The position numbers and the translations under genes are program-made. 43,840 nucleotides of DNA from Actinomycetota bacterium (GTDB lineage Bacteria > Actinomycetota > Actinomycetes > S36-B12 > UBA5976), in the NCBI GenBank assembly GCA_009923495.1, contig RFTJ01000009.1:1-43840 (forward strand), read 5' to 3'. The notes under the pieces are model-generated. The model did no database searches. It was not told the DNA's origin and saw only the letters and a list, made by a program, of their open reading frames with translations. How positions within the stretch are numbered: the first letter of the stretch is position 1; every line of letters begins with the position of its first letter. Positions 2,503-16,900 of the stretch are shown here, one piece after another.

Positions 2503-3186
2503 CTAAGATTCGAAGCGATAGCCTAAGCCACGAACTGTAGTCAGATAAACCGGATTAGCTGGATCTGGTTCTATCTTTGATCGGATCCGCTTGATGTGAA
2601 CATCCAAAGTTTTGCCATCACCGTAGTAATCAGAACCCCAGACCCGATCCATTAATTGTCCCCGAGTTAACACTCGGCCAGAATTACGCATGAGATATTC
2701 GAGTAACTCAAATTCCTTGAGCGGCATCGAGACTTTCTCGCCATTTACTGAGATTGTGTGTCGGTCGACATCGATACGAATCGGGCCACTTTCCAGAATG
2801 GATGAGTTAGGCACATCAACTTCACCACCGCGACGCAATACAGCACGGATTCGAGCAAGAAGCTCAGGCGTTGAGAATGGCTTAGTCACATAGTCATCTG
2901 CGCCTAATTCAAGTCCTACAACTTTATCTACTTCGGTATCTTTCGCCGTCAACATAATCACTGGAACGCTAAGTGACTTCGAACGAATGTATTTACAAAC
3001 TTCAATTCCTGATGCGCCTGGCAACATCCAGTCCAGTAGAACTAAATCTGGATTAGATTTGTCGAATTCGGCGATACCTGCTGTGCCATCGCTAGCGATG
3101 GCAACGTCAAATCCCTCACGCGTAAGCATGAACTCTAAACCCTCGCGGAAGGACTCTTCATCTTCAACGATTAACACCAGGGTCAT
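2503..3186 (-). CDS. regX3: Response regulator RegX3 (OmpR/PhoB family)
   Basis: DNA-binding response regulator that answers to SenX3 and controls phosphate-starvation genes. 227 aa from the ATG at 3186-3184. That start overlaps the senX3 stop as ATGA and removes a spurious 40-residue extension of the open frame. The receiver domain (1-120) has the acidic pocket VEDEE, phospho-acceptor Asp52 in LLDWMLPG, the Thr of MLTAKD and Lys102 in TKPFS. The winged-helix output domain (~130-227) shows KEFELLEYLMRNSGRVLTRG and the recognition region TLDVHIKRIRSKI. Coupled to senX3 and convergent with the LpqE-like gene, 22 bp apart. Confidence 0.95.
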   Translation of the reverse strand: MTLVLIVEDEESFREGLEFMLTREGFDVAIASDGTAGIAEFDKSNPDLVLLDWMLPGASGIEVCKYIRSKSLSVPVIMLTAKDTEVDKVVGLELGADDYVTKPFSTPELLARIRAVLRRGGEVDVPNSSILESGPIRIDVDRHTISVNGEKVSMPLKEFELLEYLMRNSGRVLTRGQLMDRVWGSDYYGDGKTLDVHIKRIRSKIEPDPANPVYLTTVRGLGYRFES

Positions 3187-4331
3187 GATGCCTTCACTTC
3201 TGGGCTTTGTGAGCCCCCGTTTAGGTATGCCGGAAATCGAAGGGTAAATGTGGATCCTTCGCCCTCGCGGGACCAGACGAAGCAATCGCCACCATGATTT
3301 GCGCAAACATGCTTCACAATCGCTAAACCTAAGCCAGTTCCACCTGTTTCGCGACTACGAGCTGGATCAACTCGGTAAAACCGTTCAAAAATCCGCAGCT
3401 GATTTTCTTCGGAAATTCCGGGACCTTGATCGGTAACTGAGATCTCAATCGAGTCATTCGTGCGACGCGCACCAATACCAACTCGAGTGCCGGTAGGTGA
3501 ATATTTGATTGCATTCGAAATCAGATTACGCAAGGCGGCGACCAATTGGGACTCATCGCCAAGAATTTTTCCGACCGCAACATCTTCGGAAACAACAACC
3601 TGGATCTTTCGTTGATCTGCCGTTATCTTCATGCCATCAACCGCTTCGTTAATAATGGTTTCTACCAAGACAGGATTTGAGTGCTGCAGTGGAGCATCAT
3701 CTTGTACCCGAGAAAGTTCGACCAAGTCTGAGAGCATCGCAGTTAGGCGCCGCACTTCAATTTGCATACGGGCCGCGAAATTTCGTGCCCGCTCAGTATC
3801 GCCGTCAGCAGCCTGAACCGCTTCGGCAAGTAAAGATAATGCGCCAACTGGAGTCTTCAGTTCGTGACTTACGTTGGCAACAAAATCTCTGCGTACTTCG
3901 TTCAGCCGACGCTCTTCGCTGAGATCCTGAGCGATAACCAATGCTTTACTGAAGTCGAGAGGGCTAACTTGAAGACGAGCTTCCCATTCCCCAAGGCCAG
4001 TCAGATTGCGCTTGATAACTACATCTCTACCCATTGTTTTTTGCAGCCGATGCGCTTCTTGATTCAACGCACGAAGTTCTATTGGTGCTAGCCGGTCGCT
4101 GACAATCAACCCCATGGCTACGCAATTGGTACTCGCTGCCAATACATTTCCGTCGCGATCGACTACCGCGGCAGCATCTGGAATAACATCTAAAATGTTT
4201 CCGAGAGCGGAAACTTGGTCGACTGATTCAACTGGCTGTACCTCAGCCGACTTTGGTCGAAAGAACTGACCAAGTCCAAGTCCGATGGCCAAAGAAGCGA
4301 TTACCGCTAATGACCACAATGTTGTTGACAC
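3183..4331 (-). CDS. senX3: Sensor histidine kinase SenX3
   Basis: Membrane histidine kinase partner of RegX3; PhoU and the Pst transporter hold this system off when phosphate is plentiful. 382 aa. A single transmembrane segment lies at about residues 5-22 with almost no extracellular part, then a PAS-like region (about 40-135), the HisKA dimerisation domain with H-box FVANVSHELKTP (His156), and a HATPase domain with NLISNAIKYS, DQGPGIS and GGTGLGLAIVKHV. The start is GTG at 4331-4329. TATCCT lies exactly six bases upstream of it, with no ribosome-binding site, so the mRNA is probably leaderless. The intergenic region shared with phoU may carry the autoregulatory site. Confidence 0.95.
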   Translation of the reverse strand: MSTTLWSLAVIASLAIGLGLGQFFRPKSAEVQPVESVDQVSALGNILDVIPDAAAVVDRDGNVLAASTNCVAMGLIVSDRLAPIELRALNQEAHRLQKTMGRDVVIKRNLTGLGEWEARLQVSPLDFSKALVIAQDLSEERRLNEVRRDFVANVSHELKTPVGALSLLAEAVQAADGDTERARNFAARMQIEVRRLTAMLSDLVELSRVQDDAPLQHSNPVLVETIINEAVDGMKITADQRKIQVVVSEDVAVGKILGDESQLVAALRNLISNAIKYSPTGTRVGIGARRTNDSIEISVTDQGPGISEENQLRIFERFYRVDPARSRETGGTGLGLAIVKHVCANHGGDCFVWSREGEGSTFTLRFPAYLNGGSQSPEVKAS

Positions 4332-4489: not shown

Positions 4490-5137
4490 ATGTCGGAAAT
4501 GAGTGCAGTTGACCTAGTTGATGTAAATGCAGATTTGGTAAAAATGACCGAACTGGTTGGCCGAGCCATCTCTGATGCCACTTCCGCGCTACTAAATGGC
4601 GACCTCGCATTAGCTCAACAGGTAATTAGTGGTGATGAGCCACTTAATGAGCTAAATGCCGGCATTGAAGACAAATGCTTCCTCATAACTTCCACCCAAG
4701 CTCCTGTGGCTCGTAAATTGCGTACTGTCATGAGTGCCGTTCGAATGGCCACTTCCCTTGAGCGCATGGGCGATCTTGCGGTACACATTGCCAAGCAGGT
4801 GAGGCTTCGATACCCGAATCCAGCTATTCCAGCTGAACTGGTTGCCACATTTAGCAAAATGGGCACATCTGCTTTGAAGATTGTGCAGGAAACGGGCAAG
4901 GTTATTCAAGACAACGACGCAAGTATGGCCGAGCAAATCGCAATCTACGATGACGAATTGGACAAACTACATCGTGAACTATTCATGACAGTACTATCCG
5001 ATAGTTGGGAACATGGTGTTGAAGCCGCCATTGATGTGACCCTGCTGTCTCGCTTTTACGAAAGATTTGGCGATCACGCCGTGACAGTTGCTCGTCGATT
5101 AGTACATATTGTTACGGGCGAACCTTACGGCCACTAA
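4490..5137 (+). CDS. phoU: Phosphate signalling regulator PhoU
   Basis: Cytoplasmic negative regulator that links the Pst transporter state to the phosphate sensor kinase. 215 aa, made of two three-helix PhoU repeats. Each repeat has the metal-binding E(R)xxD signature: LERMGDLAVHIA (about residue 90) and YERFGDHAVTVARR (about residue 190). The start ATG follows a TACACT hexamer by six bases, suggesting a leaderless transcript. It is divergent from senX3-regX3, the kinase/regulator it is expected to restrain, and is followed by mshA 76 bp downstream. The Pst operon it acts with lies about 7 kb away in this window. Confidence 0.95.
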   Translation: MSEMSAVDLVDVNADLVKMTELVGRAISDATSALLNGDLALAQQVISGDEPLNELNAGIEDKCFLITSTQAPVARKLRTVMSAVRMATSLERMGDLAVHIAKQVRLRYPNPAIPAELVATFSKMGTSALKIVQETGKVIQDNDASMAEQIAIYDDELDKLHRELFMTVLSDSWEHGVEAAIDVTLLSRFYERFGDHAVTVARRLVHIVTGEPYGH

Positions 5138-6561: not shown

Positions 6562-9120
6562 TTAGCTAATTGACTTTACAGTCACCTTGGTGAAGGTGTT
6601 CTGTTCTGAAGTTGTGCCAGTAGCAGTTGGTGACTTACCAAGGTTCTTGACAACAACAGTGTGGTAACCATTCGCTAGGCCAGTTACTGCAACAGTTGCA
6701 GTTCCTGATCCATTTAGGTCCCAACTAATCTTGTTCCCTGTTACCAAGGTTGGATCTACGGCATACTGAACGCCATCGATTAGCACGCTAACCTTTCCGC
6801 CCTTGACATCCTTGCCCAGAACAACGGTCACCGAGGTGCCGAAGATGTACTGGGTACGTGACGCATTGGCTGATGTTGATACGAAGTCACTACCACTTGC
6901 GGTCCAAGTGCCTGAAGCAGCTGAATCCGTAGCATTAATGTTCTTCTTGATGATGCGTGCAGCACTTGCATTGCCTGCGGCATCTTTAAATGCACCTGCA
7001 TCAATTGCTAATGATGCATTGGTTATTGCAGAGGCCTTGACCCGAACAGTCATTGCAGTTACTGCGAATAATCCATTCGGATTGTCTACCTGATTGTTCG
7101 CCCAGAAGTTACATGGACCCCATACAGTTGGCTCTTTGACCGTGGTGCATGAGTAATTCGTCCATGAAGTGACAGCTAATGGAGCTTGGTTCAGGATTTC
7201 AACCGGTGCCACGTTTGCTACGTTCTTAATGACATGGAACTTGCTCAAGTCAACTTCGCGAACTGGTTCGCTGAAGTTGAGGATGAAAGATCCGATGCCA
7301 GTGGCAAGAGTGGTTGCATATTTCGATGCGGCATCTACGGTGATAACCGGAGCAGTTGTGTCAGCAGCTGGGGTGTTGCTTAGCACGCTCGCTGAGAAGG
7401 CAGCAGTTGAATTACCTGCACGGTCAGCAGCTGCACCAGCAGCAAGCGACAGGCTTACTGGCTTGCTTCCGTCGCCATCGTAAGCGATTCCAGTTACCTT
7501 AACAGCGATGTTTGAAACAACCTTATTTGCATAAGGATCCAAATCATTGGTGTTACCGGCATCAAATGCACTTACTGCCACACCCTTGCTATTTGTAGCA
7601 GTGGTAGATACAACTAGAGAACTATTGCCAGTCTGAGTAACAGTCAACTTGCTTGCGTCAGTCATGCGAACTGGCTCGCTGAAGTTGATTGTGAAGGTGG
7701 CCTCACCGGCAGTGTTAGCGCTCGGCGATGGTGAAGCCAAGGTTACTGTAGGTGCAGTTGCATCATTTGGCGTGACTGCTGTGTTCGGGTTACGCACGCG
7801 GCAGTATGAGCCAGCGGATACTGGCAGTGGTGCGAAGCCTTCAGACTTAATTGCACTTTCAATCAGTGACCGGTACCCAACCTGCTTGATGCGGTCCTTT
7901 GTGGTGTCAGTGATTGTGCACAGGAATCCACTTGGACCAACATATGCATTGGTTGCAGCAGAGGCGTAACGGGTGACGTTGTAAACATCGCGTGAGAATG
8001 GGAAGTAACCACTGGTCTTGTCCGCACCCTTTGCAATGTTTGCAATGGTAGGAGCAATTCCGTTGATCTTGCCAAGCGCATCTTCATAGCCACCAGCATT
8101 CTTGCTGCCAGTTGCAGTACGTGAAGAGTAAGCATTTTCCTGGTCCGTGATACCAGCAGTCTGCTTGTAACGACCAACTGACATGAAGTAAATCGCGTTG
8201 TTGGTGTTGCCATCGTACTTGATCGCTGCAGGGAAGTTTTCCTGAACGGTTGAGTAGATAGCTGGGGCAGTCTGGGAAGGAACTGGAGATGCAGCAGGCG
8301 CACTCATCTTTGTTGCTGAGTTAGTGCGGGCTGAGTTGGTCCAGTAGCTGTAAGTACCCGAGTTTGACTGGGTTGTGTACAGAACGATACCGGTAGCTGG
8401 CAACGGATTAGCCTCATTTGAAGCTGCTGGTGAAGCAGTGGCGAAAGGCTTTCCATCAACATCAAGCACGCCAGCATTTCCGTTTAGCTGTGACCAGAGG
8501 GTTACTTCGCCACGGAAGATTGCCTTCAAGGTGTCGGTGTCGATTGAGTCAATGCGACTCGAGGCAGTGTCTGAACCATCTGGGTTCTTGGTGAAGTGGT
8601 ACCAAGTTACCGCATCTTCTGCATAAGCAATGTACTTAAGATCAGAACATTTTTCTGCAGTTGTGCTTGTGGCTGGACCACTTGATGAACGTGCGAAGTC
8701 AACTTGACGAGTGTTCGTCTCAGCTTGCTTACACAATTCAGTCTGACCTGCGCCAGAACCAACTGGGTACAACTCTTTGATTACAGCGTGGCTGTCATTG
8801 ACCCAAGGGAAGCTTGATTTGTCAGAGCCATTGCCTGAAGCCTGGTCGGAAGTATCGCACTGACCATTGCGAGGCTGGCTTGAAGATGATGCCCAAATGG
8901 TGGCGCAACCGTTGGCTGCGTTGTACACCTTGTCCAGGGCCATCATTAAGTCATAGGTGGTATCTGAACCGGAACCAACGATGGTCTTATCCATTGTTGA
9001 TAGGTCAGGGGCGGTGGTAATCGCACTAGCAGGAATTGCTGTTGCAAGAAGACCACCAACGAGACTAATTCCAGCAATAGCAACTTTGATGCTCTTGCTG
9101 AACCTTTCGATTGATCGCAT
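6562..9120 (-). CDS. Large secreted PstS-like protein with C-terminal Ig-like domains
   Basis: Exported 852-aa protein. Signal peptide: basic start, hydrophobic core 12-30, cleavage likely after ASA-33. Residues 45-440 look like a phosphate-type periplasmic binding domain (TIVGSGSDTTYDLM, VDFARSSSGPA, IFRGEVTLWSQL, TTQSNSGTYSYW, GFAPLPVSAGSYC). Two Ig-like modules follow (about 455-580 and 588-725), each opening with a TAPVIT-like strand, containing NFSEPVR and closing with a D-x-AGN turn, then a beta-rich tail (735-852). There is no lipobox, sortase motif or C-terminal membrane anchor, so retention at the surface is unexplained. Strong ribosome-binding site AGAGGA. Last gene of a three-gene minus-strand cluster beside the pst operon. 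A role in phosphate capture is inferred; the ligand is unknown. Confidence 0.8.
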   Translation of the reverse strand: MRSIERFSKSIKVAIAGISLVGGLLATAIPASAITTAPDLSTMDKTIVGSGSDTTYDLMMALDKVYNAANGCATIWASSSSQPRNGQCDTSDQASGNGSDKSSFPWVNDSHAVIKELYPVGSGAGQTELCKQAETNTRQVDFARSSSGPATSTTAEKCSDLKYIAYAEDAVTWYHFTKNPDGSDTASSRIDSIDTDTLKAIFRGEVTLWSQLNGNAGVLDVDGKPFATASPAASNEANPLPATGIVLYTTQSNSGTYSYWTNSARTNSATKMSAPAASPVPSQTAPAIYSTVQENFPAAIKYDGNTNNAIYFMSVGRYKQTAGITDQENAYSSRTATGSKNAGGYEDALGKINGIAPTIANIAKGADKTSGYFPFSRDVYNVTRYASAATNAYVGPSGFLCTITDTTKDRIKQVGYRSLIESAIKSEGFAPLPVSAGSYCRVRNPNTAVTPNDATAPTVTLASPSPSANTAGEATFTINFSEPVRMTDASKLTVTQTGNSSLVVSTTATNSKGVAVSAFDAGNTNDLDPYANKVVSNIAVKVTGIAYDGDGSKPVSLSLAAGAAADRAGNSTAAFSASVLSNTPAADTTAPVITVDAASKYATTLATGIGSFILNFSEPVREVDLSKFHVIKNVANVAPVEILNQAPLAVTSWTNYSCTTVKEPTVWGPCNFWANNQVDNPNGLFAVTAMTVRVKASAITNASLAIDAGAFKDAAGNASAARIIKKNINATDSAASGTWTASGSDFVSTSANASRTQYIFGTSVTVVLGKDVKGGKVSVLIDGVQYAVDPTLVTGNKISWDLNGSGTATVAVTGLANGYHTVVVKNLGKSPTATGTTSEQNTFTKVTVKSIS

Positions 9121-9268: not shown

Positions 9269-10102
9269 TTATATGCCGGCTGGCAGCAGGGTGTCTAGTG
9301 CCAAAGTCAGGGCAACCAAGGATCCTGCGACCAACGGGGCAATCAGAATCCAGCCGACCATGGCGCCGAATCTTTGGTAAATCCCGCGACTGGCAATCAG
9401 TGCTAAAACTAGCACTTGGAGCAGGAGCAACATCAGGGCGAATTGATTGGTGTTGGGTGCCGTTCTGGCATTTTTTGGTGTATCCGGGTATGGCTTAGCC
9501 TGCAATACAGCCGTCACTGTTTCAGATTTAAAAGCTAAAATCGGTGGGCTTGAAGTTACTAATTTCAAGATATTTGAACCGGAGCCAGCCTCTGCCTCTT
9601 TCGGGCCTATCACCTTATAAAGGGACGGACCTTCGACGGTCGTTACTCGAATCTCAGTACCTGGCTTAAGTCCAGGCACCTTAAAGAAAGGAGCGCCAAA
9701 CGTGGTTCGTCGGCCGACAATAACCGCTTCTCCAGCCTGACCCGGCAAAACTGTTCCCGGCACATGACCAGGACCCAATTGAGTGAAATTACTTGTTACA
9801 CCTTCAACAACAACTTGGGTAAGGCCGATTGCCGGAATTTGTAACAGCGCCACAGGCGATCCGTATGCTGGCGCGGTATCTGGAAGCGGACTGACATCCG
9901 ATTGCCCGATTGCAGAAGCAGCTGTAGCAACAACCGATTTGAACTCAGAGGTTAATTGTTGTTGAGATCTTTGTTGCAAAAGTACAGCTAACAGAAATTC
10001 AACAACTAACACTCCGACGGTCACGAGGGTTATGTACGAGAGTAATTGAGATGAGCCACGTCGTCGCTTACTAGTGGCTACTTCACCTTCAACTAAATCC
10101 AT
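9269..10102 (-). CDS. Class E sortase-like membrane protein lacking the catalytic triad
   Basis: Sortase fold without the expected chemistry. 278 aa from the ATG at 10102 (a GTG at 10120 would add six residues). One N-terminal transmembrane segment (about 22-43), an extracellular sortase-like domain (about 85-205) and two C-terminal membrane segments. The class E scaffold is recognisable: LQIPAIGLTQVVVEGV, LGPGHVPGTVLPGQAGE, RTTFGAPFFKV, LKPGTEI. The active-site positions are changed: His of GHRTT is Arg (GRRTT, codon 9712-9710), Cys of TTCNP is Ser (VTSSPP, codon 9553-9551) and the later Arg appears to be Lys (AFKSE). The frame is intact, so this is a divergent pseudo-enzyme rather than a pseudogene. 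It lies between two PstS-like genes; neither has a LAxTG/LPxTG sorting signal. A scaffold or binding role is inferred. Confidence 0.8.
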   Translation of the reverse strand: MDLVEGEVATSKRRRGSSQLLSYITLVTVGVLVVEFLLAVLLQQRSQQQLTSEFKSVVATAASAIGQSDVSPLPDTAPAYGSPVALLQIPAIGLTQVVVEGVTSNFTQLGPGHVPGTVLPGQAGEAVIVGRRTTFGAPFFKVPGLKPGTEIRVTTVEGPSLYKVIGPKEAEAGSGSNILKLVTSSPPILAFKSETVTAVLQAKPYPDTPKNARTAPNTNQFALMLLLLQVLVLALIASRGIYQRFGAMVGWILIAPLVAGSLVALTLALDTLLPAGI

Positions 10103-10103
10103 T

Positions 10104-12215
10104 TTATCCAGAACTCTCACTCGGCTTGCGAACCAAACTCGTTACAGAAGCTGCCGCCCCAATCAAGACTAGTGCCGGAATAACTCCTGCGGCTAAACCA
10201 TTGTGCGGAACAAATGGAGCAGCAAAAATTGAGGGCAACTTTTTGAGTACAGTAGCGCCTCCGCCGACATTTGTTATCCCGCTGTCTATCGAAATGATTC
10301 CAGTTCCGTCTCCGCCATCAGTATCCACCGGGTCAATGACTGGAATCTCTGAATTATTTGGTTCTGGCGTGGCCGAACTGCTCGGGGTAGCAGATGGGGA
10401 TGGCTCAGGGCCCGCGATCTTCGCGATTGCACCAGATATTTGCTGCTTTTGCGCATCAGTTAATGCGACAAATCCACTTGGCACATCACTGCTTTTACTG
10501 TTGTCGCGGATGTGGGCCAACATCGCCTTTAGCGCATCTGCGGCTTTTTGTGTTTCAGTTTCCGTTGGAACCATTGCATAAACGGTAAATACTAAGGGGT
10601 AGGCATTTGGATTCACAGGGTTAAGGTTTGCTGACGCTACACCAGTTTTTTCATCGGTAATCATTTCTGAAATACCCAGTCCAATAGATTCCGTCGTGGG
10701 AGCGATGAATTTACTACCGTCACTATTTGCAATTGATACTGAAGGAAAGCCGCTAAATTTTGCGATTGCCGCATCCATTGGCGCGATGAATCCCACACCG
10801 CCAGTTGGATCATCAGATCCTCGCATTGCAGCAACAACTGCATCCGAATTTGACCTGAATGCACCGGGGTCTAAAGAGTTTGCAAGTGGCATGTAGAGGG
10901 ACGGAGCAGGAAAACCTTCTTCACTGAATTGACCCCCCGGGGCATGGAATGCCTCAGCTGCCTTCTCTAGAAAATACCTCGTCATCAAAAAGTTCAAGCC
11001 AGACGCATCCGCTCGACCATAAACCGAAATACTGCCTGGCAACTGGTTAGTTGGATTTACCAAGCCGCCACTGACATACGCACGTTTGTAACTGCCATCA
11101 ACGGTAAATGAAGTTTGACCTTTTGTCGGATCCGAATCGTCGGCATTTGTGACACTGGTGATTTCATATTCGCTGTTATACCCAGATGGATTTACATCCT
11201 CGACTATCACTGAATCGCCGACATTGAATATTCCATTTGCTGCAAAGGTGATTTTAGTACCATCCCCGCTAGCGTTAGTTACCCGTGGTGACCGAGAGTT
11301 GTTCAATGCATAAATCGCAACATTTTTAGTCGAAGTGGCTGCATGGCTACCCCAACTAAGCGCCTGACCGGTCATAGTGTGAGCGAGCATGTCTGCTGTC
11401 AAATTGATTTCGGGAAGTCGTTGTTGATCTAGTCGATTACGCATTGAGTAGGCAAAAACCAATGCCGAATTTGCAATTGGGACATAAACCGCCGAACGCA
11501 CCTTGTCGGTCATTAGACATTTACCGCCGTGCTCGTCCGCGACCTCAGTAACGGCAAAATCAATCAGCCCACAATTGAAGTCCTGCATACCGCCTTCATC
11601 ACCACGGGTAGCAAGGTAATCTACGGTCACGCGATTTGAGCTTTTACAGAGAGCTATCTGCCAATTGGGCATAATCGCGCTAAGCGCCCCGCTACCGCCG
11701 CCTGTGATGTTATTCATATTCTCGGTTGGGCAGCTGGTTGCCTCGGGCTTAAATGTAATCGGGAAAACGAACCCTAGATTTGGTTTACCTAGATCCTCGA
11801 GATTGGTTAGGACCACATCACACGGTGAGCTTGGACCACATGAAGTTCCATTGGCGCCAGGCAAACTCGTATTAATCGTTCCTTCGGTAGACACCACTTG
11901 AAAATAAGCCAATCCTGAGCCGCTGGCGCTGCTCATCTCTTGGACTAAACCACCGGCACCACTTGAGCATTGGCTTGACTCCGTTGCGTTATTTACGCAC
12001 TGTCGGATGGCAATCAATTGGTAGGGGGCAAACCCTGACCAGGTAACAGTGACCACCTGACCCTCACGGAGGCCGGTTTGTGGACTGAGGTTTACTTGCG
12101 GCGATTCAGCAGATGCAGATGGAACGACTGCCAAGGAGGCAGAGAAAAAAGCAAATACCACCGAGCAGAAAGTGGCAATAAATTTCCGCTGAGTAAAACG
12201 CCTAAAATCAGGCAT
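10104..12215 (-). CDS. Surface-anchored PstS-like protein with neocarzinostatin-like N-terminal domain
   Basis: Exported 703-aa protein from the ATG at 12215 (a GTG at 12233 is also open). Signal peptide cut after about ASA-36. Residues 40-155 resemble the neocarzinostatin-type beta-sandwich: VNLSPQTGLREGQVVTVTWSGF, then QCV...SQCS and SCGPSSPC, two Cys pairs in the family spacing. A PstS-like domain follows (about 165-620: TGGGSGAL, LIDFAVTEV, ISVYGRADASGLNFL, GGVGFIAP), interrupted at about 307-385 by a beta-rich insert (FNVGDSVIVEDVNPSGYNS). A Pro/Ser/Thr linker leads to a transmembrane helix (about 674-693) and a short basic tail, so it is probably membrane-anchored at the C-terminus. First gene of the three-gene cluster, two bases from the sortase-like gene and divergent from pstC. 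Ligand unknown. Confidence 0.78.
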   Translation of the reverse strand: MPDFRRFTQRKFIATFCSVVFAFFSASLAVVPSASAESPQVNLSPQTGLREGQVVTVTWSGFAPYQLIAIRQCVNNATESSQCSSGAGGLVQEMSSASGSGLAYFQVVSTEGTINTSLPGANGTSCGPSSPCDVVLTNLEDLGKPNLGFVFPITFKPEATSCPTENMNNITGGGSGALSAIMPNWQIALCKSSNRVTVDYLATRGDEGGMQDFNCGLIDFAVTEVADEHGGKCLMTDKVRSAVYVPIANSALVFAYSMRNRLDQQRLPEINLTADMLAHTMTGQALSWGSHAATSTKNVAIYALNNSRSPRVTNASGDGTKITFAANGIFNVGDSVIVEDVNPSGYNSEYEITSVTNADDSDPTKGQTSFTVDGSYKRAYVSGGLVNPTNQLPGSISVYGRADASGLNFLMTRYFLEKAAEAFHAPGGQFSEEGFPAPSLYMPLANSLDPGAFRSNSDAVVAAMRGSDDPTGGVGFIAPMDAAIAKFSGFPSVSIANSDGSKFIAPTTESIGLGISEMITDEKTGVASANLNPVNPNAYPLVFTVYAMVPTETETQKAADALKAMLAHIRDNSKSSDVPSGFVALTDAQKQQISGAIAKIAGPEPSPSATPSSSATPEPNNSEIPVIDPVDTDGGDGTGIISIDSGITNVGGGATVLKKLPSIFAAPFVPHNGLAAGVIPALVLIGAAASVTSLVRKPSESSG

Positions 12216-12324
12216 TTTTATCTCACTTTCCACTCGTAGCTGCGCATTTGTGTCTAAGCAGAATGCAGTAATTAAAATCTAGCATCACGCATATTCCGGG
12301 GTTAAATCAAGTCAAAAAGGCCTT

Positions 12325-12346
12325 GTACACCAAGAGTTCACCTAGG
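12325..12346 (+). promoter_or_regulatory. PHO box upstream of pstCABS
   Basis: Two 11-base direct repeats, GTACACC-AAGA and GTTCACC-TAGG, stand head to tail, and a degenerate third unit (GTCAAGG) follows at the same interval. The second heptamer is a perfect match to the actinobacterial PhoP/RegX3 repeat. It lies 98 bases before pstC in the 229-base region shared with the divergent PstS-like gene, so it could serve both directions. RegX3 encoded in this window is the likely regulator. Confidence 0.65.
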
Positions 12347-12444: not shown

Positions 12445-13479
12445 ATGAGCGATGGCCCTAACCAGCCGGGTCCGCATAAAGGTCCAGCTCTTGTTGATTG
12501 GGATCAACCTACGGACGTAACCGCACCGCAAGAACCCCGCACTGTAGCTGCCTCGCGCACTCGAGCTGATCGGATTTACCGAGGAGTAGCAAAAAGTGCT
12601 GGTGCATTAACTCTCGTTCTACTGGTTCTTATCGGTGCATTTCTCCTAATCAGGTCCAGCGATGCTCTGCGCTATATGGGCTCTGGCTTTTTCACAAAAA
12701 CTTTATGGCAACCTCAAGGTAGCCCAGCATCTTTTGGTATCGCTGCAGTTATTTATTGGACTGTGGTTATTGCAGTAATCGCTCTGATAATTGCCATTCC
12801 CCTGGCCATTGCAATTGGCCTATTTTTGACCGACTTTGCTCCGCGAAAGTTGCGTAAGCCACTAACTGCACTCGTAGACTTGCTCGCTGCAATTCCAAGT
12901 TTGATTTATGGACTGTGGGGCCTATTCGTTTTACAACCTGTTCTGGTTCCCTTTGCCGAATTCCTGAGCACAAACTTGAGTTGGATTCCCATCTTTAAAG
13001 TTGATTCGCCGACTTTTACCAGCTCTGCCTTTGTGGCTGGATTCGTGGTCTCATTGATGGTATTACCGATCACGGCTTCGGTGGTTCGTGAAGTTTTTAG
13101 CCAAGCACCGCCCGGTGAGCGTGAGGCTGCCCTAGCACTTGGGTCAACGCGCTGGGACATGATAAGAACAGTTGTCTTGCCGTTTGGTCGTGGCGGCATA
13201 ATCGGTGGATCAATGCTCGGCCTGGGCCGCGCTCTAGGCGAAACAATCGCTGTGGCCTTAATTATCAGCCCCTCATTTACTATTTCTTCTGAAATCTTAA
13301 AGACCGGAACCAACTCAGTAGCTGCCCTTATCGCCCTAAAGTTCGGGGAAGCATCGGGCATTTCACTATCCGCGCTCATGGCTGCCGGTCTTGCCTTATT
13401 CGTAGTCACCTTGATTGTGAATTTCTTGGCATCAATAGTTGTCGCCAAATCTCGTTCTGGTGCGGGAGTTGAAATCTAA
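12445..13479 (+). CDS. pstC: Phosphate ABC transporter permease PstC
   Basis: One of two integral membrane subunits of the high-affinity phosphate importer. 344 aa: a hydrophilic cytoplasmic N-terminus of about 45 residues, then about six transmembrane helices. The coupling loop for PstB is REAALALGSTRWDMIRTVVLP (the EAA motif), followed by GRALGETIAVALI, typical of PstC. It heads pstC-pstA-pstB-pstS and overlaps pstA by one base (TAATG). A PHO-box-like repeat about 100 bp upstream suggests induction by phosphate starvation through RegX3. The start ATG is preceded by a weak GAGAG ribosome-binding site. Confidence 0.95.
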   Translation: MSDGPNQPGPHKGPALVDWDQPTDVTAPQEPRTVAASRTRADRIYRGVAKSAGALTLVLLVLIGAFLLIRSSDALRYMGSGFFTKTLWQPQGSPASFGIAAVIYWTVVIAVIALIIAIPLAIAIGLFLTDFAPRKLRKPLTALVDLLAAIPSLIYGLWGLFVLQPVLVPFAEFLSTNLSWIPIFKVDSPTFTSSAFVAGFVVSLMVLPITASVVREVFSQAPPGEREAALALGSTRWDMIRTVVLPFGRGGIIGGSMLGLGRALGETIAVALIISPSFTISSEILKTGTNSVAALIALKFGEASGISLSALMAAGLALFVVTLIVNFLASIVVAKSRSGAGVEI

Positions 13480-14552
13480 TGACTGTAGTAACTGGCGAAC
13501 GCCCTGAGGTCGGCTTTGAACCGCGGCGAACTGGACGCGGTTGGCACCGTGATGACATAACACTCATGGTAGGTGCCATTATCTCCTCTGGCGTCCTGAC
13601 TTGGCTGGCGATTTACCAACTCACCCCGGTTAGAAATAAACCCGCTTTGGGCTTTATTTGGTACGTACTTTTTCTAGTCATTTACCGAATTGTGGTCGGA
13701 CAGAACGAAGGCAAACTAGCGGCCAAAGACAAGATGTTCACCGTAATTGTTGCCACCGGAGCAGCAATCGTACTCGCCCCACTGCTGTTTATCGTTACTT
13801 ACATTGTGGCAAAAGGCCTGCCAGGACTGAATCGGGATTTCTTTGTTAAAGACCTTTCGGCCACCGGCACGCTAGATCTCGGTGGTGGCGCAGCGCATGC
13901 GATTGTCGGAACTATCCAGCAAGTAGGGATCGCGATTCTCATTTCAGTTCCACTTGGTGTACTTACTGCTGTATTTCTGAATGAAGTTCGTGGACCGATG
14001 CGCAGGCCCGTTCGAACCTTTGTCGATGCAATGTCTGGTGTCCCCTCAATTGTGGCAGGACTATTCATTTACTCAGTGTGGATCATTCAGTTTGGCAACG
14101 ACTTCTCCGGTTTTGCCGCATCACTCTCGCTGTCAGTTTTGATGTTGCCATCAATCACTCGAACTTCCGAGGAAGTACTGCGCTTAGTTCCCGACGGTTT
14201 ACGTGAGGCTTCGCTAGCTCTGGGCTCCACCGAATGGCGCACTACCTGGTCGGTAGTTTTACCTACTGCTCGCGCTGGGCTAGTGACTTCGGTAGTCCTC
14301 GGTGTTGCCCGAGCAGTAGGGGAAACGGCGCCGCTAATTATGACCTCGTTCGGCAATTCGGCAATGAACGCAAATCCTCTGGCTGGTCCGCAGTCTTCGT
14401 TGCCTCTTTTTGTTTACACGCTGATTCGAAATCCATTTGCCGAACAACAAACCCGCGCCTGGGCTGGCGCACTTGTCCTAATTGTTTTAGTCCTAGTGCT
14501 CTTTACTGCAGCACGCATTATCGGTTCCCGACAACTTAAGTCTCGGAGGTAG
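13479..14552 (+). CDS. pstA: Phosphate ABC transporter permease PstA
   Basis: Second membrane subunit of the phosphate importer. 357 aa with a longer N-terminal region than PstC: two extra hydrophobic segments (about 28-45 and 55-72) precede the family core. The core has [16 protein letters not shown], the EAA coupling loop [21 protein letters not shown] and [17 protein letters not shown]. The last is the PstA signature with the GETAPL pattern. Starts one base inside the pstC stop codon and ends two bases before pstB, whose GGAGGT ribosome-binding site lies inside the pstA 3' end. This indicates a single polycistronic mRNA. Confidence 0.95.
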
Positions 14553-14554
14553 AC

Positions 14555-15376
14555 ATGTCGACAACATCCACTAATTCACAAGAAGCCCTCAGCTTTGATG
14601 ATTCAATTCGTGGCGGTTTGGTCGCTCAAGACGTAAGTTGCTGGTTTGGTGAACGCAAAGTGCTCGACCGAGTTTCACTAGTTATGCGGCCAAAGGAAGT
14701 AACCGCATTAATTGGGCCTTCTGGCTGTGGCAAGTCAACCTTTTTGCGCACACTAAACCGCATGCACGAGCTAGTGCCAGGTGCCTCACTAGCTGGCCGA
14801 GTACTCCTCGATGGCCATGACATTTATGACCCAACTTTGCGAGCTACCGATACTCGGCGCCGTGTTGGAATGGTTTTCCAGAAGCCAAATCCATTCCCAG
14901 CCATGAGCATTTACGACAACGTACTTTCGGGGCTGAAATTAGCTGGCATGAAAATGGATAACAAAGACGAAATAGTTGAGACGGCACTGCGTCGCGCTGG
15001 ACTTTGGAATGAAGTTGCTAATCGACTCAAGGATGCTGGCGGGGGACTTTCGGGTGGACAGCAGCAGCGCTTGTGTATCGCACGTTCACTTGCCGTTGAG
15101 CCAGAGGTGCTCCTGATGGATGAACCATGTAGCGCACTTGACCCAACATCAACTAGGCGTATTGAAGAGACAATCGCGGAGATTTCACCGAACGTAACAA
15201 TCGTTATCGTTACCCACAATATGCAACAGGCACAGCGTGTTTCACAACAATGTGCCTTCTTCCTGGCTGCTGAAAATAAGCCTGGGCACATTGTTGAAGC
15301 GGGTCCAACTGATCGGATGTTTAGCAACCCAACAGATCCACGAACTGAAGACTACGTAAACGGAAGATTCGGATAA
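14555..15376 (+). CDS. pstB: Phosphate ABC transporter ATPase PstB
   Basis: ATP-hydrolysing subunit of the phosphate importer. 273 aa. Walker A is GPSGCGKST (54-62), followed by the Q-loop in [19 protein letters not shown], a PstB hallmark, the ABC signature LSGGQQQR, Walker [14 protein letters not shown] and the switch His in [10 protein letters not shown]. The first 20 residues are a non-conserved extension. GGAGGT ribosome-binding site with ideal spacing. It ends three bases before pstS, in the same operon. Confidence 0.97.
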
Positions 15377-15379
15377 ATA

Positions 15380-16900
15380 ATGAAGAAGGTATTTGGCAAA
15401 TTTGCGACAGTTTCAGTCGCAGCATTATTGGCTACTGGAACTGCAACCGCAGCGCTAGCCGACAATCCGACCATTCAAGGCGCCGGTTCCACTTGGAGCC
15501 AGATTGCCGTCGATCAGTGGCGAGCTGATGTAAAAAGCAAACTTGGCTTAAAAGTTAACTTCACTGGCTCGGGCTCCTCTGCCGGTCGCTCGCTATACAT
15601 TGCCGGGAAAGTTGATTTTGCCGTTACCGAGATCCCATTCTCGAAAGAAGGGGATCCGGGCGTCGTTGCCGGTCAGGCGGAAGTAACTTCACTTGAGGCG
15701 CAGAAGAAGACTTATCAGTATTTCCCAATCGTCGCTGGTGGAACCGCGCTCATGTATAACCTGCTTGATGCGACGGGAAAACGCATTACCAGCCTGCAGT
15801 TATCGCCAGAAACTATCGCCCAGATTTTTACTGGCAAAATCAAGAACTGGTCGGATCCGAAAATTGCTGCAGACAACGGGGGCAAAGCTCTTCCCTCTCG
15901 AGCCATCACGCCAGTAGTTCGCTCAGACGGATCTGGCACTTCGGCTCAGTTCTCTGCTTTCCTGGCAAAGCAAGAATCTGCCTACTGGAGCCCATTTGCT
16001 GATGACAACGGTATTCCAACAACAGCAGGCACCTCGAACTATCCAGTTGCAACGGGTTTTGTTGGCCAGACGGGATCTGATGGCGTCGCTAACTACGTAG
16101 CTAACCGATCAACAGGTATTGGAGCTATTGGCTACGTAGAAACTGGTTATGCATTGCAGCGAGGTTTCCCAGTTGCAGCAGTTAAAAATAAATCAGGCAA
16201 GTATGTGTTACCGACTCCAGAAAATGTTTCAGTCGCACTTCAGGCTGCCCGTCTTAATCCAGATAACACCCAGATTTTGACTGGTGTTTACAACAACACC
16301 AATGCAAATGCCTACCCAATTTCGTCATACTCATACATGGTCACTAACAAGGACACTGGGCTACCTAACGATAAGGGTGCGGTGCTGTCTTCTTACGTTC
16401 GTTACTTCGCTTGTGAAGGTCAGCAAAAGGCTGCGGTACTTGGTTATGCTCCGCTGCCACCTGTGCTTGTTCAGGTTGTCTTTGATGCGATAACTCATAT
16501 TCCTGGACACATAAAAATTCCAGCTAAGCCAACTGCGCAAAACTGTGCAAACCCAACCTTTACTGGAAAGCTGGGTGAGGGTGCGAATAGTGCTGGCAAT
16601 AGTGGAACAGGTGGATTCACTGGCTCTGGAACGGGAACCGATGGTACTGGCACGACAACAGGAACTGGAACCGATGGTACTGGCACGACAACAGGAACTG
16701 GAACCGATGGTACTGGCACGACAACAGGAACTGGAACTGTCCTAGACAACAATCAATCACCAGTGAAAGCAGTACAAATAAATGTTGCACCGCAAGGTAG
16801 CAAAGTTGTTTGGCCAGCCCTTGCGGTTATCTTGGTCATCATTGGCCCGTCTTTGGCCGTAACTGCCTACCGAAAAGTTACTTCAAGGAGTGCTAGGTAA
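15380..16900 (+). CDS. pstS: Phosphate-binding protein PstS, C-terminally membrane-anchored
   Basis: Extracytoplasmic phosphate receptor for PstCAB. 506 aa, longer than usual. Signal peptide 1-27 ends ALA and has no lipobox. Residues 28-395 are a canonical PstS: IQGAGSTW, FTGSGSSAGR, DFAVTEIPFS, IFTGKIKNWSDP, VVRSDGSGTSAQFSAFL, GAIGYVETGYA, GYAPLPPVL. A low-complexity Gly/Thr spacer built from an 11-residue unit repeated three times follows, then a transmembrane helix (about 475-495) and a basic tail. The protein therefore seems tethered by a C-terminal helix rather than a lipid. pstS is last in the operon, whereas it is usually first. Ligand assignment rests on the conserved phosphate-site loops and operon position. 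Confidence 0.94.
   Translation: MKKVFGKFATVSVAALLATGTATAALADNPTIQGAGSTWSQIAVDQWRADVKSKLGLKVNFTGSGSSAGRSLYIAGKVDFAVTEIPFSKEGDPGVVAGQAEVTSLEAQKKTYQYFPIVAGGTALMYNLLDATGKRITSLQLSPETIAQIFTGKIKNWSDPKIAADNGGKALPSRAITPVVRSDGSGTSAQFSAFLAKQESAYWSPFADDNGIPTTAGTSNYPVATGFVGQTGSDGVANYVANRSTGIGAIGYVETGYALQRGFPVAAVKNKSGKYVLPTPENVSVALQAARLNPDNTQILTGVYNNTNANAYPISSYSYMVTNKDTGLPNDKGAVLSSYVRYFACEGQQKAAVLGYAPLPPVLVQVVFDAITHIPGHIKIPAKPTAQNCANPTFTGKLGEGANSAGNSGTGGFTGSGTGTDGTGTTTGTGTDGTGTTTGTGTDGTGTTTGTGTVLDNNQSPVKAVQINVAPQGSKVVWPALAVILVIIGPSLAVTAYRKVTSRSAR
16636..16734 (+). repeat. Three tandem copies of a 33-base unit inside pstS
   Basis: Three perfect 33-base units (16636-16668, 16669-16701, 16702-16734) encode a Gly/Thr/Asp linker of 11 residues per copy, between the ligand-binding domain and the membrane anchor. 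A degenerate partial copy precedes them. Perfect identity suggests recent slippage and possible copy-number variation between strains. Confidence 0.9.

Follow-up and report, generated by a model that had tools for sequence, protein, structure and literature searches.

A sortase-fold pseudoenzyme as a proposed component of a variant actinobacterial Pst system

An inactivated sortase encoded in a 43,840-nucleotide stretch of actinobacterial DNA (the window) is classed here as belonging to a new form of the Pst system. Textbooks treat sortases as cysteine transpeptidases. The window protein, designated the pseudosortase, has a sortase fold without a catalytic triad. It has a single origin, is under purifying selection, is linked near-invariantly to a separate Pst clade, and is conserved together with two PstS-like proteins, X and Y. 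The evidence leans, if only modestly, toward the inactivated sortase being a fixed accessory membrane scaffold or docking subunit of a distinct actinobacterial Pst importer. Its physical binding to Pst or to X and Y is inferred, and gene neighbourhood is not proof of contact.

A sortase fold without the catalytic triad

The pseudosortase gene (9269..10102, minus strand) is intact from its ATG and encodes 277 amino acids; a GTG at 10120 is an alternative start. The protein consists of an N-terminal transmembrane segment (about residues 19-42), a sortase barrel (about residues 80-205) and a C-terminal two-helix hairpin (residues 221-245 and 247-270). In the AlphaFold2 model the cytoplasmic part is limited to short tails. 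The reading frame and the model thus confirm the one N-terminal and two C-terminal membrane helices of the original prediction.

The sortase scaffold was also correctly recognized. The protein matches Pfam PF04203 with 46.5 bits (cut-off 26.6), and the AlphaFold2 model, built from a 39-row alignment, has a pLDDT of 91.8 and a pTM of 0.86. Superposition with VIA-align gave a Z score of 18.1 with the class D sortase SrtD of Clostridium perfringens (4d70) and of 15.2 with the class E sortase SrtE1 of S. coelicolor (5cuw; rmsd 1.9 Å over 124 residues). By these three measures it belongs to the sortase superfamily fold. Class E is the best NCBIfam sortase class, and like SrtE1 the pseudosortase has a sortase barrel and an N-terminal transmembrane segment. 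However, its score with the class E model NF033747 is 68.5 bits, under the curated cut-off of 160, and it falls short of three features of the class E enzyme, namely the triad, the NF033747 cut-off and a long β6/β7 loop. Unlike SrtE1, it has the extra C-terminal hairpin and is not adjacent to LAxTG or LPxTG substrates. It is a sortase-fold pseudoenzyme and is not to be filed as a class E sortase.

The catalytic sites were assigned by profile alignment with ten canonical class E sortases from related genomes. Where SrtE1 has the triad His251, Cys320 and Arg329 (PMC5148588), the pseudosortase has Arg131 (CGA, 9710..9712), Ser184 (TCA, 9551..9553) and Ser193 (TCT, 9524..9526), all on the minus strand. 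The spacing between Ser184 and Ser193 is the same as that between Cys320 and Arg329. The alignment bears out the predicted change of the catalytic His to Arg and of the nucleophile Cys to Ser, each at the codon originally named (9712-9710 and 9553-9551). The third replacement had been read as Lys. Since the profile alignment puts Ser193 on the Arg position, the replacement is Ser; the Lys is K192, one residue earlier. It aligns to a Lys that precedes the Arg and is not conserved, ruling out Lys as an Arg substitute.

The losses are common to the whole set of 126 distinct full-length homologues, none of which keeps the His, Cys or Arg at its triad site. At the His site 125 of them carry Arg and a single one carries Lys. 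The nucleophile site is occupied by Ala in 97, Ser in 18, Gly in eight, Thr in two and Val in one, so that no homologue has Cys there, and none has Arg at the catalytic Arg site. Of the pattern that was to be looked for in homologues, the Arg and the absence of Cys are therefore conserved and the Lys is not. An alternative triad within the pseudosortase, which would have refuted the prediction, was ruled out: the protein has no Cys, and its single His, H113, is part of a conserved GPGH turn motif.

Could the protein still cut or transfer surface proteins, using Ser184, or some other residue, for nucleophilic attack? The barrel and the GPGH and LPGQ motifs are kept and the Cys site is Ser in the window's clade, as such a residual enzyme would need. 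A serine enzyme is unlikely, however, because most homologues have Ala or Gly at this site (97 and eight of 126), the His and Arg partners are missing, and the PstS and X partners lack sorting motifs (L[PA]xTG in 2 of 121 C-termini). An Arg two residues past the lost catalytic Arg, on the same strand, occurs in 72 of the 126 homologues and is absent from the window protein; residual chemistry through it is unlikely, and activity is untested. Retained enzymatic function is thus considered very improbable.

The β6/β7 segment, measured from a Tyr to the Thr before the Cys site, is 20 residues long in the window protein and 20-27 in the pseudosortase family, in contrast to 27-37 in the ten canonical sortases. 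The long β6/β7 loop shapes the substrate groove of the class E sortase (PMC5148588). With the loop shortened, peptide binding in the groove may therefore be lost; docking contacts could be made via the membrane helices alone.

Two further features of the chain were observed. In the linker before the barrel (residues 71-76) SPLP is invariant across the window's family, and the nearest relatives read SPLPDTA, a string similar to an LPxTA sorting signal; in SrtE1 the active-site groove is occupied by the N-terminal linker peptide (PMC5148588). The C-terminal end reads LLPAGI or LLPATI in the window's family and LLPN in the wider family.

Conservation and origin of the pseudosortase

Long orthologues were found in 9 of 43 genomes of the window's family, in two genera, all with Arg and Ser at the His and Cys sites. 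Homologues occur also in Streptomyces, Micromonosporaceae, Jiangella, Amycolatopsis, Nakamurella, Microbacteriaceae, Cellulomonas and Nanopelagicales. The dN/dS values of orthologue pairs within the window's family are 0.06 and 0.08; the nearest pair (the window and G035) was left out, its synonymous sites being saturated. The pseudosortase is under purifying selection, as the original prediction had supposed. Since the triad loss is shared by the homologues and dN/dS is this low, the loss is old. The absence of three catalytic residues is also what a pseudogene or a sequencing error might leave, but intact orthologues with the same replacements in two genera, more than 120 homologues and the dN/dS values rule out decay or error, and this explanation can practically be dismissed. 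No close relative with a normal triad, the other finding that would have told against the prediction, was found.

Phylogenetic analysis placed the pseudosortases in one clade against the canonical sortases (support 100/99). Wider sampling of the phylum brought in two sortases with a similar C-terminal region and an intact His/Cys/Arg triad, L216 (7031-7915 of its locus, plus strand) and L217 (8107-9066, plus strand). They share the barrel with the pseudosortase, and their C-terminal regions align with its hairpin and LLP end. Both lie outside Pst loci, with no Pst operon nearby and only weak ABC-ATPase similarity. When they were added to the tree, the pseudosortases remained one clade (98/95), nested beside these active forms, which branch just outside it; backbone support outside the pseudosortase clade is moderate. 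L216 and L217 are likely active cousins of the pseudosortase. As the pseudosortases form one clade beside active hairpin sortases, the triad was probably lost once. The simplest history is a single loss, after the C-terminal hairpin was already present in the ancestral sortase.

Linkage to a separate type of Pst transporter

The window contains a Pst locus in the strict sense that PstS, PstC, PstA and PstB all score above curated cut-offs. The genes are on the plus strand: pstC (12445..13479; TIGR02138, 270.3 bits, cut-off 196.45), pstA (13479..14552; TIGR00974, 271 bits, cut-off 193.45), pstB (14555..15376; 344.5 bits, cut-off 343.2) and pstS (15380..16900; TIGR00975, 205.3 bits, cut-off 205). 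PstS retains the classic RSDGSGTS motif and has a C-terminal transmembrane segment instead of a lipobox, with no LPxTG. Divergent from pstCABS lies the arrangement X-pseudosortase-Y on the minus strand. X (10104..12233) has a neocarzinostatin-like N-terminal domain, a PstS-like domain and a C-terminal transmembrane segment without LPxTG, and its stop codon sits one base ahead of the pseudosortase ATG. Y (6562..9120) is a secreted protein resembling periplasmic-binding proteins (PBPs), with no C-terminal transmembrane segment (TIGR02136, 31 bits, cut-off 206.6). No C-terminal LPxTG or LAxTG was found in these flanking PstS-like proteins, and the gene does sit, as described before, between two large secreted proteins of this kind.

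The divergent promoter of the two gene groups carries a PHO-box-like repeat, GTACACCAAGAGTTCACC (12325..12342, plus strand). It consists of two 11-base PHO-box-like units and fits the pattern GTNCACCN4GTTCACC exactly, the only exact match within the window; the assignment rests on sequence alone. In several relatives, comparable repeats occupy the aligned position. The PHO-box core of S. coelicolor is GTTCACC (PMC4415409).

Both neighbours are conserved with the pseudosortase, a check that the original prediction had called for. The upstream protein is homologous to X of linked operons elsewhere (hhalign E 1.2e-38, 458 columns) and the downstream protein to Y of pstB-linked operons (E 1.2e-25, 300 columns). 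Within the window's family, the 9 of 43 genomes with X are precisely those with the pseudosortase; shared ancestry makes a naive chance estimate overstated here. The best structural match of the PstS fold of X is M. tuberculosis PstS-1; the AlphaFold2 model of X has a low mean pLDDT (64.6) and was used for domain-level matches only. X has RADASG aligned to the PstS phosphate-site motif RSDGSG, and Y keeps the SGT motif but lacks the preceding Arg. Judging from these residues, X and Y may bind something other than free phosphate.

The same association is seen across the phylum. In 68 of 69 named loci longer than 9 kb, pstB lies directly downstream of the pseudosortase gene on the same strand. 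The exception (L154) is from a Jiangella that has a second, pstB-linked copy (L120); Jiangella anatolica thus has two pseudosortase copies, one without pstB downstream. The named loci are the best 80 of 247 matches and some of their genomes recur among the whole genomes, so the figure should not be read as coming from random sampling. Among 28 whole-genome contexts a Pst gene was in reach in 26, and the other two are short contigs with X or Y. Sampling of other classes of the phylum gave five pseudosortase loci, and all five are Pst loci. By comparison, none of 13 canonical sortase loci examined as a control had a Pst gene nearby. Elsewhere the genes usually run pstC-pstA-pstS-X-Y-(Ig-like protein)-pseudosortase-pstB, in some cases with genes for WxL-like and WxLIP proteins after them. 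The view of the pseudosortase as a local oddity is replaced by that of a family-wide component of one Pst transporter type.

That type is separate. The linked PstBs, the window PstB among them, form one clade with full SH-aLRT support (100%), apart from the lipoprotein-type Pst systems. In the large actinobacterial genomes examined there are most often two PstBs: one accompanies a lipobox PstS, and the other is linked to a pseudosortase. Like the lipoprotein type of PstSCAB, the window's system has all four NCBIfam-level Pst proteins and a promoter repeat that resembles a PHO box in sequence. Unlike it, its PstS and X are tail-anchored and it adds the PstS-like X, Y and the pseudosortase; PstS in canonical Pst loci is of the lipobox type. 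Only one PstB, the linked one, exceeds the family cut-off in the window genome (97% complete), whose main phosphate importer is therefore probably of this type.

The window genome also has a triad-bearing class E sortase (G000:C7:10289-10657, L001), encoded directly downstream of a large LPNTG-ending surface protein. The dead copy might then serve as an adaptor that recruits, or competes for, substrates of this canonical enzyme, and the Pst linkage would be a matter of co-regulation only. But the canonical gene is on another contig without Pst linkage, and both the constant place of the gene in the operon, between the PBP genes and pstB, and the linkage specific to one PstB clade point to the transporter. 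The adaptor reading is accordingly judged improbable, if still possible.

Regulatory genes are found in the pseudosortase neighbourhood. phoU (4490..5137, plus strand; TIGR02135, 171.8 bits, cut-off 130.25) lies beside a two-component system resembling PhoR/PhoB-PhoP (2503..4331, minus strand), whose best matches, PhoR (258.6 bits), YycF (248) and PhoB (245.5), are all below cut-off. Their presence, the direct adjacency of the pseudosortase to pstB in most taxa and the substituted phosphate site of X, as might be expected of a sensor, would fit a signalling subunit that senses the occupancy of X and Y and relays it through the membrane helices to Pst, PhoU or a PhoR-like kinase, in place of a mechanical part in uptake. 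Against such a relay, the protein has no cytoplasmic domain beyond its tails, most pstB-linked loci, each examined over about 15 kb only, showed neither phoU nor two-component genes, and most large genomes have a second, canonical Pst. A signalling role appears unlikely, though it keeps some claim to attention.

Some linked operons share features with WxL/WxLIP loci. They include WxLIP_PGBD proteins scoring 28.4 and 39.0 bits against a cut-off of 27.3, and a single WxL-like protein that stays below cut-off at 20.4 bits; the positions are L105:5538-6740 and L150:8675-10943. None was found among the window proteins scanned, and elsewhere they are accessory and variable. Their occurrence suggests a larger cell-wall-bound complex.

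A proposed docking role

A triad-less sortase conserved almost always in one type of Pst cluster means that an enzyme scaffold appears to have been turned into a non-enzymatic transporter part. The original suggestion, in which a sortase fold takes on a new task as membrane scaffold partner of phosphate-binding surface proteins, is supported by the fixed replacements, the Pst linkage and the selection, with binding still an inference. In the proposed mechanism the N-terminal helix and the C-terminal hairpin would sit in the membrane beside PstC and PstA. The extracellular barrel would hold PstS and X, via or near their C-terminal anchor segments, and the secreted Y, without cutting or cross-linking them. 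In this way several phosphate-binding proteins would remain docked above the importer of a monoderm cell whose linked system has no lipoprotein PstS. A covalent surface-protein anchoring enzyme would have become a non-covalent docking platform.

The C-termini of X and PstS each consist of a transmembrane helix and a basic tail. These tail anchors, and the tight coupling of the pseudosortase gene with X, would also suit a helper that aids the membrane insertion or folding of PstS and X and stays outside the mature transporter. A conserved barrel with an invariant Arg suggests instead, by inference, a lasting binding role, and an export or folding function seems doubtful, if still possible. The docking model can be put in a stronger form, in which a separate class of phosphate ABC transporter has the dead sortase as an obligate structural subunit, and this subunit holds PstS-like proteins, both tail-anchored and secreted, over PstCA without covalent bonds. 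This form is a serious possibility, but one that we hold only tentatively and would not quite favor.

No description of a pseudosortase or of a sortase-like protein in a Pst operon was found in the open-access literature searched; subscription papers were outside the search. Within the searched literature, the pseudosortases would, if the model is true, be the first conserved pseudosortase family and the first sortase fold in an ABC importer. A widespread lineage in which the triad was lost but the fold, the membrane topology and the operon position are fixed points to a scaffold doing a non-chemical job. The pseudosortase marks a separate type of Pst transporter with tail-anchored binding proteins. 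Routine annotation obscures this type behind labels like "sortase" and "PstS"; in the small window genome no other system with a PstB was found. The finding opens to testing how monoderms without a lipoprotein PstS for the linked system keep binding proteins at the importer.
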